A stretch of DNA of 64,000 nucleotides, taken from contig NC_134366.1 in the NCBI RefSeq assembly GCF_035582795.1, forward strand, positions 168,466,401 through 168,530,400, in the 5' to 3' direction. Positions 7,491-55,246 of this stretch are shown piece by piece. The notes below the pieces were generated by a model. It made no database searches, was not told the DNA's origin, and was given only the letters and a program-made list of their open reading frames with translations. Origin of the DNA: Mycteria americana. Its lineage: Eukaryota; Chordata; Aves; Ciconiiformes; Ciconiidae. Both the position numbers and the translations under genes were made by a program. The first letter of the stretch is position 1. The number at the start of each line of letters is the position of its first letter.

Positions 7491-8345
7491 ACAACCATTG
7501 TGTGTGAATTCATTGGTCTGAATCAGGAGGGGAGAGATTTCAGTCCATATCCAGTAAGACCATGTGACCCCCATACATATTTCACCTCTGGCATTTTCCT
7601 TCATCCAGTAATTTCATATTGAGACACTGAAACTGAAATGTTCTCATGAAAGGCTTCCATTTGACAAGCTGTGTTTTCTGATATTTTACAGCTCATTTTG
7701 CGGCTTCCAGACATTCTGCATTCTTTTCTTTTCAGTTAATGGGTACATCCCTACTTACTTGCCTAGGTGCAGAATGAAAGACATCTATGCTCCTAGTTAT
7801 TATAAGCCAACTAATGGCAAGAATATATAACACTGCTTTGGTCTCTAGAGAAATTTCTAGATTCAAGGTCATAAGTCAAGAAAAGCATTAGCTCCTCAAA
7901 GGAGGCATTGAGGCAGTGTGGGGACAACTTGAAGGAATATCATGGTAATTCCTCCATCTGGCGACGAACACTCTGTCATTTGCTGTCCTAATAAGGAACA
8001 TGGTGATTAAATATGGCTAAGCACTCGGGCTAGTTGTGATTTTTTAATTAAAAGAAATGCAAGTTGCTTCGATTTTTTATCACAGGAAAAAGATGTATTG
8101 TCAACCCTTGTGCACAGACGCAATTAAATTCAAATTCTGACTAAGCCTCTTAAGCGGAGAACAAAACCCAGCATGGCCTTGTTTAGGCTTTTCTTCAGAA
8201 ATACAGAAACACCTGCAATCAACTGCATTTGCTACTGGATGGTATTTTATGCAGCATACTTTGGGCTTATTTTTGCTGGTTTTGAAAGTACCCATACACT
8301 GTCATATTGGTAGGTCCTTTCAGTATAATACAGTTTGTATAATAC
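7491..8345. other. Stretch without recognised genes
   Basis: I see no gene. No domain is recognisable in the short open frames, including 8101-8295 on the minus strand. The last five bases (8341-8345, AATAC) are the left flank of the ERV insertion. Confidence 0.5.
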
Positions 8346-8927
8346 TGTCCTGGTTTCAGCTGGAATAGAGTTAATTTTCTTCCTAGTAGCTGGTATAGTG
8401 CTGTGTTTTGGATTTTAGTATGAGAATAATATTGATAACACACTGATGTTTTGGCTGTTGCCAAGTGATGTTTACACTGGTCAAGGACTTTTTCAGCTCC
8501 CCATGCTCTGCCAGGTGCACAAGAAGCTGGGAGGGGGCACAGCCAGGACAGCTGACCCAAACTGGCCAAAGGGCTATTCCATACCATATGGTGTCATGCC
8601 CAGTATACAAACTAGGGGCAGCGATTGCTGTTCGGGGACTGGCTGGGCATCAGTTGGCGGGTGGTGAGCGGTTGTATCAGTTTTTTGGTGTTTTTTTTCT
8701 TTTTCCCCTCTCTTGGGTTTTGTTTCTCTCTCTCTCTCGTTATTTTCCTTCTCATTACAACTCATTATTATTATTACTATTATTTTGTTCCAATTATTAG
8801 ACTGTTCTTATCTCAACCCATGAGTTTTCTTACTTTTGCTCTTCTGATTCTCTCCCCCATCCCACCGAGGGGGAGTGAGCGAGCGGCTGCGTGGTGCTTA
8901 GCTGCCAGCTGGGGCTAAACCACGACA
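8346..8927 (+). repeat. ERV LTR, family A (left copy)
   Basis: The LTR begins TGTCCTGGTTTCAGCTGG and ends AAACCACGACA, so it has TG...CA termini. A weakened TATA-like site AGTATACAAACT lies at 8602-8613, followed by a T/C-rich and ATT-rich segment. The block CTTATCTCAACCCATGAG (8807-8824) is shared with the other LTR families in this window. It is about 95% identical by eye to the inverted copy at 9389-9962 and also matches 49730-50271. Confidence 0.9.
8602..8613 (+). promoter_or_regulatory. Degenerate TATA box of family A LTR
   Basis: AGTATACAAACT sits in the expected U3 position, downstream of the CATATGGTGTCATGCC block. The C in place of T inside the motif suggests decay. The role is inferred from position. 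Confidence 0.45.
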
Positions 8928-8938
8928 GTCCTTTTTGG

Positions 8939-9011
8939 TGCCCAACGTGGGGCTCGAACCCACGACCCTGGGATTAAGAGTCCCATGCTCTACCGACTGA
9001 GCTAGCTGGGC
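8939..9011 (-). tRNA. tRNA-Lys(CTT)-like sequence, full length, inside ERV primer-binding site (retroviral copy, not a normal gene)
   Basis: The minus strand reads as a complete 73-base tRNA-Lys. The acceptor stem is GCCCAGC paired with GTTGGGC (one G-U). The anticodon loop is CTCTTAA with anticodon CTT at 8978-8976, and the T arm is GTGGG TTCGAGC CCCAC. It is followed directly by the CCA complement (TGG, 8936-8938), which eukaryotic nuclear tRNA genes do not encode. The position is 8 bases after the LTR end, exactly where a primer-binding site belongs. A normal site would match only about 18 bases; here the whole tRNA is present, so it is best read as a reverse-transcribed primer. A tRNA finder would probably call it a real gene. 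Confidence 0.85.
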
Positions 9012-9311
9012 CTTGAAAAGCAAGTGCTATGGCGACATTACACCCCAGAAAGAATTGAGTCAGACAATGGGACTCATTTTCGGAAAAAAATCATAGACAC
9101 ATGCGCCAAAGAACACGGCATTGAGTGGGTGTATCACATCCCCTATCATGCACCAGCCTGTGGGAAAATTGAACGATACAATGGACTGTTAAAGACTACA
9201 CTGAGAGCAATGGGTGCTGGGATGTTCAAACATTGGGATACACATTTAGCAAAGGCCACCTGGTTAGTTAACACTAGAGGATCTGTCAATCGAGCTGGTC
9301 CTGCCATCTTA
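9012..9311 (+). pseudogene. pol: ERV integrase fragment (catalytic core)
   Basis: An open frame from about 9012 encodes the C-terminal half of a retroviral integrase core. ESDNGTHF provides the second catalytic Asp and GKIERYNG the catalytic Glu, with 35 residues between them (the D,35,E spacing). KHWDTHLAKATWLVNTRG follows. The fragment starts abruptly at CTTGAAAAGCAAGTG, where the tRNA copy ends, and stops after the RAGPA segment, so the first catalytic Asp and the zinc-binding and DNA-binding domains are absent. The pattern is ERVL-like. It cannot be functional alone. Confidence 0.85.
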
Positions 9312-9378
9312 AAAATCGGTGTTGGTTTTTGCAGTTTGCTGTGCTCTGCTTTAATTGGTGATTAATCCCGGGCTCGGC
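9312..9378. other. Unassigned filler between integrase fragment and inverted leader
   Basis: About 67 bases (CTTAAAAATCGGTG ... CCCGGGCTCGG) do not match the integrase continuation seen in the ERV at 49730-51952, nor the LTR. Reading toward the right it ends in CCA, which is the start of the inverted leader. Its origin is unknown to me. Confidence 0.5.
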
Positions 9379-9388
9379 CAAAAAGGAC

Positions 9389-9962
9389 CGTAGTGGTTTA
9401 GCCCCAGCCGGCAGCTAAGCACCACGCAGCCGCTCGCTCACTCCCCCCCAGTGGGGGGTGATAACTTGTGGGTTGAGATAAAAACAATTTAATAATTGGA
9501 ACAAAATAATAGTAATAATAATAATGAATTGTAATGAGAAGGAAAACAACAGGAGAGAGAGAGAGAAACAAAACCCAAGGGAGGGAAAAAGAAAAAAAAA
9601 AACCCAAAACTGATACAACTGCTCACCACCCGCCAGCTGTCCCCGAGCCCAGCCAGTCCCCGAGCAATGATCGCTATCCCCCGGCCAACTCCCCCAGTTT
9701 GTATACTGGGCATGACATCATATGGTATGGAATAGCTCTTTGGCCAGTTTGGATCAACTATCCTGGCTGTGCCCCCTCCTATTTCTTGTGCACCTGGCAG
9801 AGCATGGGGAGCTGAAAAAATCCTTGACTAGTGTAAACATCGCTTGGCAACAGCCAAAACATTAGTGTGTTATCAATATTATTCTCATACTAAAATCCAA
9901 AACACAGCACTATACCAGCTACTAGGAAGAAAATTAACTCTATCCCAGCTGAAACCAGGACA
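9389..9962 (-). repeat. ERV LTR, family A (inverted right copy)
   Basis: The reverse complement begins TGTCCTGGTTTCAGCTGG and runs to GGCTAAACCACTAC, close to the left LTR throughout. The match continues past the LTR end into the leader GTCCTTTTTGG (9378-9388 reversed), so this copy carries a 5' LTR plus leader pointing inward. In a normal provirus the two LTRs have the same orientation. Confidence 0.9.
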
Positions 9963-10106
9963 AGTACATACCTGACTGAGTCAAGTCCTGGGAAGAAGGA
10001 AAAGTGTCAGCTGTTGAGGAGTGCTTGAGGTCTCTGTTAGTCTGTATATTTGCAACATATCTCTTTCACTGCAAGAACTAACTCCTTATTTTCTATTTTT
10101 CGTAGC

Positions 10107-21199: not shown

Positions 21200-21389
21200 T
21201 GTATTGGGTTTGCATGGCAAGGTTTTGGTAGCAGGGGGGCTATAGAGGTGCCTTCTGTGAGAAGCTGCTAGAAGCTTCCCCTGTGTCTGACAGGGCCACT
21301 GCCAGCTGGCTCCAAGGTGGACCCACAGCTGGCCAAGGTCAAGTCCATCAGCAACAGTGGTAGCACCTCTGGGATAACATATTTAAGAA

Positions 21390-21412
21390 GGGGGGGCGGG
21401 GGGGGGGGGGGG
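21390..21412. repeat. G-rich tract just downstream of LTR TATA-like site
   Basis: Twenty-three bases with a single C (21397), all others G. It can form a G-quadruplex and is a likely site of sequencing length error. Confidence 0.9.
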
Positions 21413-22166
21413 AACTTCTGTGCAACAGCAGCCAGAAGAGAGGAGTGAGAATATATGAGAGAAACAGCCCTGCAGACACCAAGGTCAGTGAAGAAGGAGG
21501 GGGAGGAGGTCCTGCTCCAGGTGCTGGAGCAGAGATTCCCCTGCAGCCAGCGGTAAAGACCATGGTGAGGCAGGCTGTTCCCCTGCAGCTCATGGAAGTC
21601 CATGGTGGAGCAGATATCCACCTGCAGCCCTTGGAGGACCCCATGCTGGAGCAGGCAGATGCCTGAAGGAGGCTGTGACCCCATGGAAGCCTGTACTGGA
21701 GCAGGCTCTTGGCTGGAACTGTGAACCCATGAAAAGAGGAGCCCATGGTGGAGCAGGTTTGCTGGCAGGACTTGTGACCCCATGGGTGACCCACGCTGGA
21801 GCAGTCTGTTCCTGAAGGATTGCACCCCATGGAAAGGACCCATGCTGGAGCAGTTCGTGAAGAACTGTAGCCCCTGGGAAGCACTCACGTTGGAGAAGAT
21901 TGTGGAGAACTGTCTGACATGGGACGGAACCCACGCTGGAACAGGGGAAGAGTGTGAGGAGTCCTCTCTCTGAGGAGGAAGGAGCAGCAGAGACAACGTG
22001 TGATGGACTGACCCCAACCCCCATTCCCCATCCCCCTGTGCCGTTGAGGGGGAGGAGGCAGAGGAAATCAGGAGTAAAGTTAAGCCTGGGAAGAAAGGAG
22101 GGGTGGGGGGAAGGTGTTTTTAAGATTTCATTTTACTTCTCATTACCCTGCTCTGATTTGATTGGT

Positions 22167-22172
22167 AATAAA
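22167..22172 (+). terminator. LTR polyadenylation signal
   Basis: AATAAA within GATTGGTAATAAATG. The same context (GATTGGNAATAAATG) occurs in the family C LTRs at 34136 and 48641. Confidence 0.7.
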
Positions 22173-22356
22173 TGAAACTAATTTCCCCAAGTTGAGTCTG
22201 TTTTGCCTGTAATGGTAATTGCTGAGTGATCTCCCTGTCCTTATCTCGACCCATGAGCCTTTTGTTATATTTTCTCTCCCCTGCCCACTTGAGGAGGGGA
22301 AGTGATAGATTGACTTTGGTGGGCACCTGACATCCAGCCAGGATCAACCCACCACA

Positions 22357-33457: not shown

Positions 33458-34322
33458 TGTATGGGGTGTCTGTGCCCAGGTGCTGGCAGTGGGGCTGCAG
33501 GGCAGCCTCTGTGAGGAGAGGCCAGGGCTGCCCCATGCCAGACACAGACGGTTCCAGCCGGTCCCAGCCGGCTCCAAGGGCCCCACTGCAGGACACAGCT
33601 GAGCCCCTCAGCCAAGCTGGGGGTGCCTGGGGGAAAAGAGGTTTCCGAAAGGGCACAAGGCGGCAGAGGCAGAGGAGGAGGAAGCCAAGGAGGGAGCAGC
33701 GGCAGAGGGACCCCGAGGCCGGAGGAGGAGGAGGGCAGGAGGTGCTGCAGGCCCGCAGCAGGGATCCCCTGCAGCCCTGGAGAGACCCCGCTGGAGCAGA
33801 GACCCACCCTGCAGCCCGGGGAGGGCCCCAGGCCGCAGCAGGGGGATATTTCCTGCAGGAGCTGCGGCCGTGGAGAGCCCGGGCGGGAGCAGGTTGTCCC
33901 TGAAGGACTGCAGCCCGGGGCAGGGCCCGCGCTGGAGCAGGAGACGGGTGAGGAGGGAGGAGCGGCCGAGAGGGGCTGGGATGGACGGACCGAACCCCCA
34001 TCCCCACCCCCTGTGTCCCTCAGGGGGAGAGGCGTCAGGAGTGAAGGGGTGAAGGTGGGCATGGGAAAGGGAGAGGGGGAGAGGTGCTTTAATTTGGGTT
34101 TTTTTTCCTCACTAGCCAAATGTATTTTGATTGGCAATAAATGCAATTAATTTCCCCACTCCTAGTCTGTTTTGCCCATGACAGTAACTGTTAAGTGATC
34201 TCCCTGTCTTTATCTTGACCCATGAGCTTTTTCATCCTGTTTTCTCTTTGTGTCCTGTAAGGAGGGGGAGTGAGGGTGCAGCTGGGGCCAAGGTGCAGCT
34301 GCTAGCCAAGGTCAACCTGTCA
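33458..34322 (+). repeat. ERV LTR, family C (longer copy)
   Basis: It starts near TGTATGGGGTGTCTG and ends near GGTCAACCTGTCA. The middle (33640-33960) is GC-rich with repeated CTGGAGCAG and CTGCAGCCC words. AATAAA is at 34136-34141, and the U5 block TTATCTTGACCCATGAG at 34210-34226 is shared with families A and B. It is nearly identical to 47977-48580 over the first 600 bases. I found no convincing target duplication, so the ends are approximate. Open frames of up to 261 codons in several phases are due to high GC and are not genes. Confidence 0.82.
34136..34141 (+). terminator. LTR polyadenylation signal
   Basis: AATAAA in the GATTGGCAATAAATG context shared with the other LTRs. Confidence 0.65.
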
Positions 34323-38993: not shown

Positions 38994-39734
38994 CCGCCGT
39001 CACTCTCGTCCCCGCCCACGCTGAGTCAGAGCCGGGTCCTCGTCAGGAGCTCCCGCCTTCCTGCTCAGGGGCCGGGGGGGTGGCTGCGCCCTCCCTTTTC
39101 TTTTTCCTCCCTTCCCTGCGCGGTTTTGCCGCGGTTTCGCCGATCCAGCAGCGGTCCCCCGACGCGGTCCTCTGTCTCAGAGCTGCTCGCCTCGGAGGCT
39201 TCGCTGAAATGGCGGTTCCAGTGTGTTCTCCTCGTTCTAAAGTGCCGCCGTCACTCTCGTCCCCGCCCACGCTGAGTCAGAGCCGGGTCCTCGTCAGGAG
39301 CTCCCGCTTCCTGCTCAGGGGCCGGGGGGGTGGCTGCGCCCTCCCTTTTCTTTTTCCTCCCTTCCCTGCGCGGTTTTGCCGCGGTTTCGCCGATCCAGCA
39401 GCGGTCCCCCGACGCGGTCCTCTGTCTCAGAGCTGCTCGCCTCGGAGGCTTCGCTGAAATGGCGGTTCCAGTGTGTTCTCCTCGTTCTAAAGTGCCGCCG
39501 TCACTCTCGTCCCCGCCCACGCTGAGTCAGAGCCGGGTCCTCGTCAGGAGCTCCCGCCTTCCTGCTCAGGGGCCGGGGGGGTGGCTGCGCCCTCCCTTTT
39601 CTTTTTCCTCCCTTCCCTGCGCGGTTTTGCCGCGGTTTCGCCGATCCAGCAGCGGTCCCCCGACGCGGTCCTCTGTCTCAGAGCTGCTCGCCTCGGAGGC
39701 TTCGCTGAAATGGCGGTTCCAGTGTGTTCTCCTC
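38994..39734 (-). promoter_or_regulatory. Three tandem 250-bp 5' units of the CR1 (candidate monomer promoter)
   Basis: The units are 38994-39244, 39245-39494 and 39495-39734 (periods 251 and 250; the outermost lacks the last 10 bases or so). They are almost identical by eye: the middle unit lacks one C near 39306. Each unit on the minus strand has a CCGCCATTT word matching the YY1 consensus, a GGGCGGGGAC GC box, and TGACTCAGC, an AP-1/NF-E2-like site. The outermost YY1-like site (39716-39708) lies about 18 bases from the element's 5' end. The layout recalls the monomer promoters of mouse L1. Promoter function is inferred. Confidence 0.75.
39708..39716 (-). promoter_or_regulatory. YY1-like site near CR1 5' end
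   Basis: CCGCCATTT on the minus strand, about 18-26 bases from the element's 5' boundary. Human L1 carries a YY1 site in the equivalent position, where it helps set the transcription start. The similarity of placement is the only evidence of function. Confidence 0.45.
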
Positions 39735-47976: not shown

Positions 47977-48665
47977 TGTCAGGTCTCTGTGTGCAGGTGT
48001 TGGGGGGGCACATTGCAGGTGGCCTCTGTGAGGAGAGGCCGGGGCTGCCCCATGCCAGACACAGCCGGTTCCAGCTGGTCCCAGCCGGCTCCAAGGGCCC
48101 CACCGCAGGACACAGCTGAGCCCCTCAGCCAAGCCGGGGGTGCCTGGGGGAAAAGAGGTTTCCGAAAGGGCACAAGGCGGCAGAGGCAGAGGAGGAGGAA
48201 GCCAAGGAGGGAGCAGCGGCAGAGGGACCCCGAGGCCGGAGGAGGAGGAGGGCAGGAGGTGCTGCAGGCCCGCAGCAGGGATCCCCTGCAGCCCTGGAGA
48301 GACCCCGCTGGAGCAGAGACCCACCCTGCAGCCCGGGGAGGGCCCCAGGCCGCAGCAGGGGGATATTTCCTGCAGGAGCTGCGGCCGTGGAGAGCCCGGG
48401 CGGGAGCAGGTTGTCCCTGAAGGACTGCAGCCCGGGGCAGGGCCCGCGCTGGAGCAGGAGACGGGTGAGGAGGGAGGAGTGGCCGAGAGGGGCTGTGATG
48501 GACTGACCGAACCCCCATCCCCACCCCCTGTGTCCCTCGGGGGGAGAGGAGTCGGGAGTGAAGGGGTGAAGCTGGGCCTGGGAAGGGGGTGCGGGGCAGA
48601 TGGTTTTTTTTTAATGTTTTTCTGGGATTATTTAATTGGCAATAAATGAAAATAATTTAATTTCA
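47977..48665 (+). repeat. ERV LTR, family C (copy truncated after the polyadenylation signal)
   Basis: It starts near TGTCAGGTCTCTGTG and matches 33458-34100 closely (about 95% or better by eye) through the GC-rich CTGGAGCAG region. AATAAA is at 48641-48646. Similarity to the longer copy stops roughly 15-20 bases after this signal, so the whole U5 is missing. High GC again creates long meaningless open frames. Confidence 0.82.
48641..48646 (+). terminator. LTR polyadenylation signal
   Basis: AATAAA in ATTGGCAATAAATGAAAA. The LTR similarity ends shortly downstream. Confidence 0.6.
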
Positions 48666-49729: not shown

Positions 49730-50271
49730 TGTCATGGTTTAACACTAGTCAGCAACTAAGCACCACACACCTGCTTGCTCACCCTCCCCCCTGGTGGCAT
49801 GGGGCAGAGAATCGGGGAAGAAAAAGTAAAACCTGTGGGTTGAGATAAAGACAGTTTAATAGGACAGCAGAGGAAGAGAAAATAATAATAATAATGATAG
49901 AAGAATGTACAAAACAAGTGATGCACAATGCAATTGCTCACCACCTGCTGACTGATGCCCAGCCAGTCCCTGAGCAGCAATCGCTGCCCCCCAGCCAACT
50001 GCCCCCAGTTTCTATACTGAGCATGACACCATATGGTATGGAATAGCCCTTTGGCCAGTTTGGGTCAACTATCCTGGCTGTGCCCCCTCCCATTTCTTGG
50101 GCACCTGGCAGAGCATGGGAAGCTGAAAAGTCCTTGACCAGTGTAAGCACTGTTCAGCAACAACTGAAACATCAGTGTGTTATCAACCTTATTCTCATCC
50201 TAAATCCAAAACACAGCACTATACCAGCTACTAGGAAGAAAATTAACTCCATCCCAGCCAAAACCAGGATA
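49730..50271 (-). repeat. ERV LTR, family A (3' LTR)
   Basis: The reverse complement starts TATCCTGGTTTTGGCTGG and ends TTAAACCATGACA. It matches the LTRs at 8346 and 9389, including the TATA-region block with CCATATGGTGTCATGCTCAG. Confidence 0.9.
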
Positions 50272-50683
50272 GTATCCACCCCTTATTCTATACCATCTAT
50301 GCCATGCTGAGGTCCCACACTTTCCAATACATTCCAATTAATCACCACCACTTTCCTTGTCTTTTGATATATACACACAGATATCATTCTCTCAATCTAT
50401 GGGCCATCCTTCAAAAATGCCCATTGAGTCCATTTAGTCCATGACTTTGGGCTCCATCTGTCATAACAGTCCTTCAGAGCAGGAGAGATGGTGTGTGGTG
50501 TTGGATTGTTGCATGCTGAAGCCAGTTCTGGTTCCATCACTGCTGCACTTTCCTTGGTTTCATCAAAGTTCATTCTTCATTAATGTGGGTGATTCTTGCT
50601 GTAATACCGTAGATATGGCATATAGCAACCATAAAAGTGATGACATACAGTATTATATAGCAATTAACTTCATACCGTTCAGT

Positions 50684-51345
50684 TCATTGGCTACTCTCAC
50701 CCAAAATCAAATCCCCTTGAGGTACACATTGGACTTCCCCATCCTTCCTCATCACCCACCAAGTGCACCCAGGTCCTTGAGCAAAAGCAATCCCATGAAT
50801 GGGTTTACATTTGCCCCAGGCAGGAATAACCCAAATGGTCTTCCCCAGCATATTTTTTATGTGCACTACAGGGACTTTATCCCCTTCTACAGTACGTAAA
50901 ATTTTTTACTGGGCAGGGCCAGCTCGATTGGCAGATCCCCTAGTGTTGACTAACTAGGTGGCTTTTGCTAAATGTGTATCCCAATGTTTGAATGTCCCAG
51001 CACCCATTGCTCTCAGTGTAGTCTTTAACAGTCCATTGTATCGTCCGATTTTCCCAGAGGCTGGTGCATGAGATGCAGTGTCGTGCTCTTTGGTCCAGGT
51101 ATCTATGAGGTTGTTCTGGAAATGAGTCCTGTCGTCTGACTCAATTCTTTCTGGGGTGCCATGTCTCCATAGCACTTGCTTTTCAAGGCCCAGGATAGTG
51201 TTCCGGGCGGTGTCATGGGGCCATCCAGTGGCTGCTTCCACCATTGTAAGCACATGGCACTTGCCTTGGTGGTTTGTGGGAGTCTGATATAATCAATGTG
51301 CCAGGCCTCCACATATTTATATTTCACCCATCATCCTCCATACCA
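50684..51345 (-). pseudogene. pol: ERV integrase, broken
   Basis: Pieces of integrase occur in two frames. The first (51327-51103) has EAWHIDYIRLPQTTKASA, including the first catalytic Asp. The second (51253-50954) has ESDDRTHFQ and KHWDTHLAKAT. The C-terminal DNA-binding part (50866-50684) has IKNMLGKTIWVIPAWGKC. Defects compared with the fragment at 9012-9311 are a frameshift, loss of about nine residues before HAPASGK, the catalytic Glu replaced by Gly (GKIGRYNG), and stops after LAKAT and after RAGPAQ. Confidence 0.85.
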
Positions 51346-51553
51346 GAGAGGCTTTAACTGCTTGGCTGTCTTTGACTCCAGTTTGTATTGAAGTTCTAGC
51401 ATGTCTGGCACAGCAGCAGTCAGTGGCAGCATGACTTCATTCAGGCCATGATAAGTCTACTGTTAGTCTCCACTCTCCTTTACACTTTTGCACTGGCCGT
51501 ATGGGACTGTTAAAAGGTGAGTGAGTCTTGCTGATCACTCCTTGGCTCTCCAG
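51346..51553 (-). pseudogene. pol: ERV reverse transcriptase, N-terminal fragment
   Basis: The minus strand encodes VISKTHSPFNSPI and then CKGEWRLTVDLS, the fingers region of a retroviral reverse transcriptase. A frameshift and stop follow, and the sequence jumps directly into the segment before integrase. The catalytic YxDD region and RNase H are deleted. Confidence 0.75.
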
Positions 51554-51874
51554 TCAACGAATCAGTCTATGGATGGGAATCAGGGAGTCTCGGTTGGTGC
51601 AATATTGCTGCCGGTGCAGTGCTGTGGTGGTGATCGGTAGCTGTTGTTCTTTGACCCTCAGCAACCCCACAACAGAAGGGTCCTCCGAGAGTCCAGGCAA
51701 TGTGGACAGCTGTTTAATTTCCTCCATCTCCAAGGCAGCTATACCAAAAGCCCACCAGTACCCCTTTCGGTCCTTGAAATACCCTCTCCTGAGGTAGTCT
51801 GTGCCAAGGATGCACAGAGCCTCTGGGCCAGTCACAATGGGGTGCTTTTGCCACTCATTCCCAGTTAGGCTCAC
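51554..51874 (-). pseudogene. pro: ERV protease C-terminal region and pro-pol linker
   Basis: The open frame includes GPEALCILGTDYLRRGYF, resembling the C-terminal part of retroviral proteases with the LGxDxL motif, followed by a linker leading to the reverse transcriptase (LPITTTALHRQQY). The catalytic Asp region lies upstream and is missing because of the deletion that joins this part to the LTR stub. Confidence 0.7.
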
Positions 51875-51938
51875 TTCAGCCTCCGATCCCCCTGTTGTAG
51901 CTGTTGGGATCCCCCTGTCACTCCAGAAATACAGATAT

Positions 51939-51952
51939 CTGAAACCAGGACA
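51939..51952 (-). repeat. 14-bp stub of the 5' LTR
   Basis: TGTCCTGGTTTCAG matches the first 14 bases of the family A LTR. The sequence then diverges into the protease region. Confidence 0.7.
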
Positions 51953-54201: not shown

Positions 54202-55246
54202 TGTGGTCGGTTGACCATAGCTGGATGCCAAGTGCCCACTGAAGTTGCTCTATCACTCCACCTCCTCAGCTGGACAGGGGGAGAAAATTATGACAAAAGG
54301 CTCATGGGTCGAGATAAGGACAGGGCAATTACTGTCACAGGCACAACAGACTCGACTTGGGGAAAATAATTTAATTTATTACCAATCAAATCATAGTAGG
54401 ATAATGAGAAATAAAAACAAATCTTAAAAACACCTTCCCCCCACCTCTCCCTTCTTCCCGGGCTCAACTTCGCTCAGTACATCACATGTAGTCTCTGCTG
54501 CTTGTTCCTCCTCGCTCACTTCCCCTGCTCCACCATGAGGTCCCTCCCATGGGAGACAGTTCTCCATGAATTTTTCCAACACAGATCCTTCCCACGGGCT
54601 GCAGTTCTTCACAAACTGCTCCAGCGTGGGTCCCCCACGGGGTCACAAGTCCTGCCAGCAAACCTGCTCCAGCGTGGGCCCCTCTCTCCATGGGTCCATA
54701 GCAATACATATCACCATGGGCTACTCTCCACAGGAACACAGGTCCTTCCAGAAGCCTGCTCCAATGCGGGCTATCCACGGGGTCTCAGTCTCCTTCAGAT
54801 GCATCCACTTGCTCCAGCATGGGGTCCGCACGGGCTGCAGGTGGATATCTGCTCCACCATGGACCTCCATGGGCTACACGGGGGCAGCCTGCCTCACTAT
54901 GGTCTTCTCCACGGGCTGCAGGGGAAACTCTGCTCCAGTTCCTGGAGCACCTCCTCTCTATCCTTCTTAACTGACCTTGGTGTCTGCAGAGTTGTTTCTC
55001 TCACATATTCTCACTCCGCTCTTCCAGCTGCTGTTGCACAGCAGTTTTTTCCCCCCCTTCTTGAATATGTTATCCCAGAGGTGCTACCAGTGTCACTGAT
55101 TGGCTCAGCCTTGGCCAGTGGCAGGTCCATCTTGGAGCCGGCTGGCATTGGCTCTGTCAGACATAGGGCCAGCTTCTGGCATCTTGTCACAGAAGCCACC
55201 CCTGTAGCCCCTCTGCTACCAAAACCTTGCCACACAAACCCACACA
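54202..55246 (-). repeat. Solo ERV LTR, family B (1045 bp)
   Basis: The reverse complement begins TGTGTGGGTTTGTGTGGCAA and ends GGTCAACCGACCACA. It is flanked by perfect GCATG duplications. It contains a polyadenylation signal (TTTATT at 54375-54380, reversed), the U5 block CTCATGGGTCGAGATAAG, and the degenerate CTGCTCCA/CTGGAGCAG minisatellite. It is clearly the same family as 21200-22356. The 258-codon frame at 54502-55278 is not a gene. Confidence 0.92.

Follow-up and report, generated by a model that had tools for sequence, protein, structure and literature searches.

Within the window, that is, the whole stretch of 64,000 nucleotides of Mycteria americana DNA analyzed here, the LTR of an endogenous retrovirus (ERV) is followed by the complement of a complete tRNA-Lys(CTT). 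Is this tRNA a host sequence that came to lie beside the LTR, or is it a copy of the primer of reverse transcription and, if so, how did the remainder of the element come to be arranged around it?

A complete tRNA-Lys behind the LTR

The preliminary description of this DNA had reported an LTR, an 8-base linker, TGG and the complement of a whole tRNA-Lys(CTT), and all of these are present, TGG at 8936–8938 and the tRNA complement at 8939–9011, the CCA included. The Rfam tRNA model aligns over model positions 1–71 of 71 (69.4 bits, E = 4.6e-13), and a 67-base piece of the copy, searched with up to three mismatches, has no match in the window other than its own position, and none in 100 shuffles. 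Position 8954 lies opposite A58 of the tRNA, and the copy in this arm (arm A) runs past it. The suggestion that the feature might be miscalled as a tRNA gene is borne out, ARAGORN reporting a tRNA on the minus strand at 8936–9011; annotators of genes may thus take copies of this kind for tRNA-Lys genes.

These same ARAGORN and Rfam results, together with a tRNA-like piece found within an LTR at another locus (L006), speak for a host tRNA-Lys gene or tRNA-derived repeat that by chance lies beside or inside the LTR. Against such an accident, the encoded CCA sits exactly at the primer-binding site (PBS) after the linker, and the same position recurs at other loci. Moreover, a host tRNA gene is recognized by the absence of an encoded CCA and by a Pol III terminator near its 3′ end, whereas the window copy encodes CCA and, between 8167 and 8935, the plus strand holds no run of at least four A, which on the tRNA strand would be a terminator. 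A chance neighbor of this kind is hardly credible. The copy carries CCA where a host tRNA-Lys gene located in a tRNA cluster (L002) reads CCT, tRNA copies recur at 13 other loci with different joins, and ordinary members of the family hold 23 nt of the tRNA complement and not a long tRNA; the earlier proposal that the tRNA was acquired by reverse transcription through A58 of the primer is supported.

When the junction frame was compared with proteins, 30 hits were obtained, all on the tRNA part and none with the LTR linker, and a third protein look-up found nothing. Exact patterns had no match in viral_contigs or genome_contigs, and in a search for relatives two stretches matched a pattern, neither encoding a relative.

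Architecture of the element and its joins

The features of the element are collected in Table 1. An ordinary provirus has two direct LTRs, with U3 and U5 termini; here, the second LTR is inverted and comes with its own linker and TGG (9378–9962), and its end is the inverse of the U3 start of the first, so that both outer ends of the element are U3 termini. The flanks agree at four of five bases, an agreement of at least 4/5 being found at that spacing in 2.0% of window positions (1243/62300), and represent a probable target-site duplication at U3/U3 ends. The alignment of the two arms covers 582 bases, a little flank included, and their K2P distance is 0.077. As the arms differ to this extent and also have private indels, they may come from different parents, or the element may be old.

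Table 1. Features of the element and its immediate flanks (window coordinates; PBS, primer-binding site).
Feature	Position	Strand	Evidence
Probable left target-site duplication, AATAC	8341–8345		4/5 match to 9963–9967
Arm A, complete LTR, from U3 start TGTCCTGG to U5 end ACA	8346–8927	+	LTR ends matched elsewhere in genome
8-nt linker GTCCTTTT, LTR-PBS spacer	8928–8935	+	CTTTT part lies within ordinary-copy pattern
18-nt PBS, complement of tRNA nt 59–76, CCA included	8936–8953	+	Rfam; sequence reading
Complete tRNA-Lys(CTT), copied from primer	8939–9011	-	ARAGORN; Rfam 69.4 bits
Plus-sense fragment of integrase core with open frame; its first bases also belong to the tRNA copy	9006–9305	+	Pfam; protein relatives
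58 nt of 5′ leader of the same ERV family, plus sense	9305–9362	+	97–98% to L010–L016
Probable sense tRNA-Lys remnant, nt 35–48, without T-arm and 3′ acceptor strand	9363–9377	+	By eye; weak, short
Arm B, TGG and linker, inverted	9378–9388	-	Sequence comparison
Arm B, second LTR, inverted, ending CCAGGACA	9389–9962	-	534/582 aligned bases identical to arm A
Probable right target-site duplication, AGTAC	9963–9967		4/5 match to 8341–8345

The integrase-like piece that follows the tRNA copy (300 nt) scores 25.2 bits with the Pfam rve model, under the cut-off of 32.6 and on a fragment. It has 239 protein relatives, of which 120 were listed, those named being from birds, and none among these 120 was seen to continue into the leader patch; the tail score of one relative, P0037 (43), stood out and was judged to be due to chance. 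The patch itself was first thought to be foreign, having no clear match to ERV2, the LTR or the flanks, until the genome search identified it as leader of the family. It matches at least 39 other places in the genome at 97–98% (40 of 670 candidates scored), and in the seven copies that were read it is the 5′ leader after the PBS, beginning 137 nt past the 23-nt PBS in 5/5 copies measured. Integrase piece and leader patch alike are viral and belong to the same family as the LTRs; no tRNA is called by ARAGORN within the leader patch. The 15 bases before the inverted TGG, which resemble part of a sense tRNA-Lys, are probably what is left of the tRNA of arm B, in which case the middle of the element would be entirely viral or primer sequence.

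This arrangement bears directly on the history first proposed for the locus, in which the plus strand of a single provirus was extended through the tRNA and transferred to the integrase region via CTGGGC, with the loss of gag, pro and RT and an otherwise ordinary outcome. The tRNA copy and its join to integrase are real, random breakpoints share at least four bases in only 2.0% of draws and at least six in 0.2%, and one locus (L004) comes near such a form, its plan being close to LTR-tRNA-gag-like-integrase. Nevertheless, there is no direct 3′ LTR: the leader patch and the inverted LTR stand there instead, the element closes at 9962 rather than continuing as a provirus, and a simple deletion through CTGGGC is therefore not supported. 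The six-base homology is also doubtful, since it needs an A at tRNA position 5. That position is G in the host gene L002 and in 24 of the 30 tRNA-derived protein hits (AR), two of the 30 carrying AQ like the window. Because the host tRNA probably has G5, the exact homology may be limited to GGGC (4 bases), preceded by a single mismatch and a C; the T at 9006 may then be either integrase sequence or the product of CpG decay. The last bases of the tRNA copy double as integrase bases, and on the G5 reckoning the tRNA has to account for at least 71 of the 76 bases. Altogether, a single provirus with an internal loss is an unlikely origin for the element. By eye, the join of L001 shares AGCC and that of L003 shares no bases; some joins may be aided by homology, but not every join requires it.

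The possibility had also been raised that the window form has multiplied in the genome. No second copy of the tRNA-integrase join was seen among the 41 matches listed (40 of 1497 candidates scored), and none of the integrase-leader-inverted linker join among 40 matches (40 of 670 candidates scored), so there is no sign of multiplication among the matches listed.

Ordinary relatives and other tRNA-bearing loci

Ordinary members of the family were sought with a pattern made of the linker, the 18-nt PBS, one free base, CGAA and the leader GGGTTTG, which matches 1029 places in the genome (546 and 483) with up to three mismatches, and none when reversed as a control. As CGAA is the complement of tRNA nt 57–54, these 1029 places hold 23 nt of tRNA complement, up to nt 54, and thus extend beyond the 18-nt PBS; the preliminary description had asked whether normal members carry an equally long tRNA, which is not the case. 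An extended pattern (linker, PBS, tRNA nt 53 and beyond) matches four places in addition to the window's own copy (control 0). The 5-bp duplications described below would suit an ERV-L-like LTR retrovirus; however, the primer is tRNA-Lys(CTT) and not the tRNA-Leu of MuERV-L, and for this reason the class name ERV-L is not claimed here.

Other repeats lie in the same window. A second ERV with the same type of LTR (49730–51952, minus strand) has only 14 nt of U3 (TGTCCTGGTTTCAG) at its start, then, by eye, protease/RT-like sequence, and closes with a 3′ LTR; flanked by TTACA/TTGCA (4/5; background 1143/61767), it looks like a premature plus-strand jump. The solo LTR of a second ERV family occupies 54202–55246 between CATGC and CATGC, its relatives in L008, L025 and L026 precede a similar linker and tRNA complement, and a stretch similar to it is found at 21205–22356. 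Three 250-bp tandem copies with 99% matches make up 38994–39734, in GC-rich DNA, and two 300-bp stretches 14.5 kb apart (33505–33804 and 48022–48321) are 98% alike.

DNA search, pattern and reading together revealed that, outside the window, the tRNA complement extends beyond nt 54 at 13 loci (L001, L003, L004, L005, which is also place L087, L008, L021, L022, L025, L026, L074, L088, L089, and L090). Two isodecoders are found among the copies, GGG..CCC (window, L001) and GAG..CTC (L004, L008), as well as two LTR families, the second one comprising L008, L025 and L026. The sequence joined to the tRNA is integrase in the window and gag-side sequence of the family in L004; the patch in L022, like that in L004, has its match within the family. 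In L001, L003, L074 (fetched as a suspected aberrant copy) and L090, inverted U3 is joined over 57, 92, about 40 and 52 nt, respectively, and these differing lengths point to separate events. L025 and L026 are joined to an inverted LTR from its U5 end, the full junction of L026 matching only itself, with L025 as the next match (40 of 134 candidates scored), and in L005, L008 and L089 the tRNA is joined to other sequence. In L021 an extra tRNA piece lies about 190 nt beyond a normal PBS, and in L022 the piece comes after 38 nt of U3 and a 37-nt patch.

Three further arrangements were observed. L088 consists of the linker, 47 nt of tRNA complement, a further patch, and an inverted linker and LTR, with no left LTR. 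The additional locus L006 has, at 1501–1571 and beside AGCTT repeats, a tRNA-Lys-like piece without CCA inside its LTR. In L028, one of 59 copies, a normal 23-nt PBS without a long tRNA runs into an inverted LTR (458 to 274).

The plan of the window element recurs, inverted U3 ends surrounding the tRNA copy in six elements (window, L001, L003, L026, L074, and L090). All six are flanked by 5-bp duplications, which are perfect in four of them (L001 CAGCC, L003 CAAGG, L074 GAACT, L090 CTGCC) and agree at four of five bases in the window and in L026 (CAGTC/CAGTA); the duplication of L026 hinges on a right U3 start at TGTATTGG, there being none two bases outward (GTATC). At five such spacings in the window, chance yields at least 4/5 in 1.9–2.2% and 5/5 in about 0.15% of positions. 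No flanking duplication is present at L005 (TCTCT/CTAAA) or L088 (CAAGA/CCATC), both tRNA-bearing, and L004, L006, L008, L021, L022, L025 and L089 stand outside these counts.

A further explanation holds that two ordinary cDNA ends or insertions were brought together by host end-joining or by a later inversion, the tRNA being a primer left on the U5 end as in MuERV-L. Primer sequence left at U5 ends is known in ERV-L (PMC5930517), and L005 is composed of an LTR and 34 nt of tRNA followed by other sequence. In contrast, the outer limit of both arms coincides exactly with U3, beyond which no internal viral sequence lies, and the 5-bp duplications abut the U3 ends in 6/6 elements, as is not expected after a later inversion. 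Such a joining of ordinary ends appears quite improbable.

The base opposite A58 provides a second line of evidence on how the primer was copied. Among 100 listed zero-mismatch ordinary copies read by eye, it is A in 51, T in 41, C in 8 and G in none, A being the commonest letter, and exact counts over the whole genome give 30 for C and 0 for G. A scripted count of the first 40 copies (L027–L066, in listing order and unpicked) gives A 23, T 16 and C 1, and, opposite the discriminator, C 37 and T 3. On a tree of these 40 built from LTR and leader, with the PBS excluded, the base opposite A58 changes 11 times; the other 791 columns change at most nine times (mean 1.49), and shuffled labels change 13.6 times on average, 86 of 1000 shuffles falling at or under 11. 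Half of the 12 pairs less than 2% divergent differ opposite A58 (6/12), and none opposite the discriminator. A set of 58 copies, deliberately enriched in C copies and without L077, dropped as a long branch, has 19 changes (20 in 59 rows with L077 included), as against at most 13 in the other 774 columns (mean 2.03) and 23.9 on average in shuffles, 14 of 1000 being as low; 10 of its 21 close pairs differ. Only two free PBS bases can be compared as controls, since the copies were chosen to be perfect at the remaining PBS bases. As the distribution on both trees is not wholly random, the base is partly inherited, and its renewal from copy to copy is nearly but not fully complete. Among the aberrant copies and arms (n = 14, by eye, including arm B of the window and leaving out L021, the piece of which starts past this base), T is found in 7, A in 3 and C in 1, and the base is deleted in 3, the faithful T thus being the commonest state.

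m1A is reported to give A-to-T changes in reverse transcription, i.e., A in the cDNA (PMC11019740). The variable base opposite A58 fits a reverse transcriptase misreading m1A58 over many cycles, and the best account of the template is a modified tRNA in which synthesis regularly passed m1A58 as far as nt 54 but seldom reached the end, the presence of m1A58 in the tRNA-Lys of Mycteria americana being assumed.

Proposed origin and comparison with known systems

It is quite probable that the element at 8346–9962 arose when two plus-strand strong-stop DNAs, one or both of them extended over the whole tRNA, were joined tail to tail and the resulting dimer was integrated. Plus-strand strong-stop DNA is the LTR-length first product of plus-strand synthesis. 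Starting from the polypurine tract, the plus strand would copy U3, R, U5 and the linker, and then the still-attached tRNA-Lys primer; usually, m1A58 would be misread and synthesis would stop at about nt 54, whereas in the window it would have reached the 5′ end of the tRNA or come within 5 nt of it. The over-long 3′ end would fail to accomplish the normal second transfer and would switch to core templates, namely integrase and then leader. A second strong-stop DNA would subsequently be copied to run-off at its 5′ end, which would create the second U3 terminus; in L001, L003, L074, L090 and L026, this step would take place directly after the tRNA. Finally, integrase would insert the U3/U3 molecule with a 5-bp duplication. 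In L026, the canonical tRNA end GGGC could pair with GTCC of the linker (one G.T), which would account for the exact start of the inverted arm at the LTR end. The structure of the ends, the duplications, the source of the patches and the recurrence of the plan are observed; we infer that strong-stop DNAs, rather than broken cDNA, served as templates, and that integrase paired two U3 ends. The switches would have occurred in the order given, and cellular end-joining may have made some of the joins.

Most probably, replication left the element behind as a dead by-product. It seems rather likely that integrated, tRNA-bearing U3/U3 strong-stop dimers constitute a regular class of by-product in this ERV lineage, and that misreading of m1A58, repeated over many cycles, has left its record in the germ line as the base opposite A58. 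The loci suggest that a pair of U3 ends is acceptable to integrase in nature, and that strong-stop DNA, after becoming double-ended, can be integrated. Counting the base opposite A58 is a simple way to assess how a viral enzyme reads its modified primer, and could be tried in any genome with a tRNA-primed ERV; if this is true, genomes can be used to measure tRNA modification and the failure of second transfer in extinct viruses. Earlier work on read-through of m1A58 and on the second strand transfer was done in vitro and in cells infected with HIV-1 (PMC13191261); here, the outcomes of read-through are preserved in the germ line with readable end points, joins and duplications.

Several ingredients of the proposed origin are already known: primer-site remnants at integrated ERV-L ends (PMC5930517), over-extension past A58 (PMC13191261), and PBS insertions in circles (PMC5618025). 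Among the titles and abstract openings searched, with subscription journals mostly outside the scope and hence without proof of novelty, no report was found of an ERV with a whole tRNA copy or with inverted or integrated U3-U3 ends.

The closest parallels are found in three systems. In ERV-L, 10 of 26 3′ junctions carry parts of the linker and PBS (PMC5930517). The junctions of MuERV-L and ancML resemble those described here in their LTR-PBS linker, their 5-bp duplication and the retention of primer-site sequence in integrated DNA; there, however, it is on the side of U5 that LTR-PBS sequence meets host DNA, and tRNA-Leu serves as primer (PMC5930517), whereas the copy described here extends over a whole tRNA-Lys, adjoins viral or inverted U3 sequence, and belongs to an element with U3 at either end. 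In lentiviruses and spumaviruses, synthesis likewise proceeds past A58 towards nt 54–55, with a few bases kept beyond the 18-nt PBS; mutation of the methyltransferase acting on A58 lets plus strands continue beyond this base, and a tRNA without modifications is copied to completion (PMC13191261). That over-extension is described mainly for HIV-1 (PMC13191261), whereas the copies examined here are germ-line fossils in which the base opposite A58 varies between close copies. Finally, HIV-1 2-LTR circle junctions share aberrant cDNA ends with primer-site or internal insertions (PBS, PPT, gag), and differ in being unintegrated U5-U3 joins (PMC5618025), unlike the integrated, linear U3-U3 elements described here.
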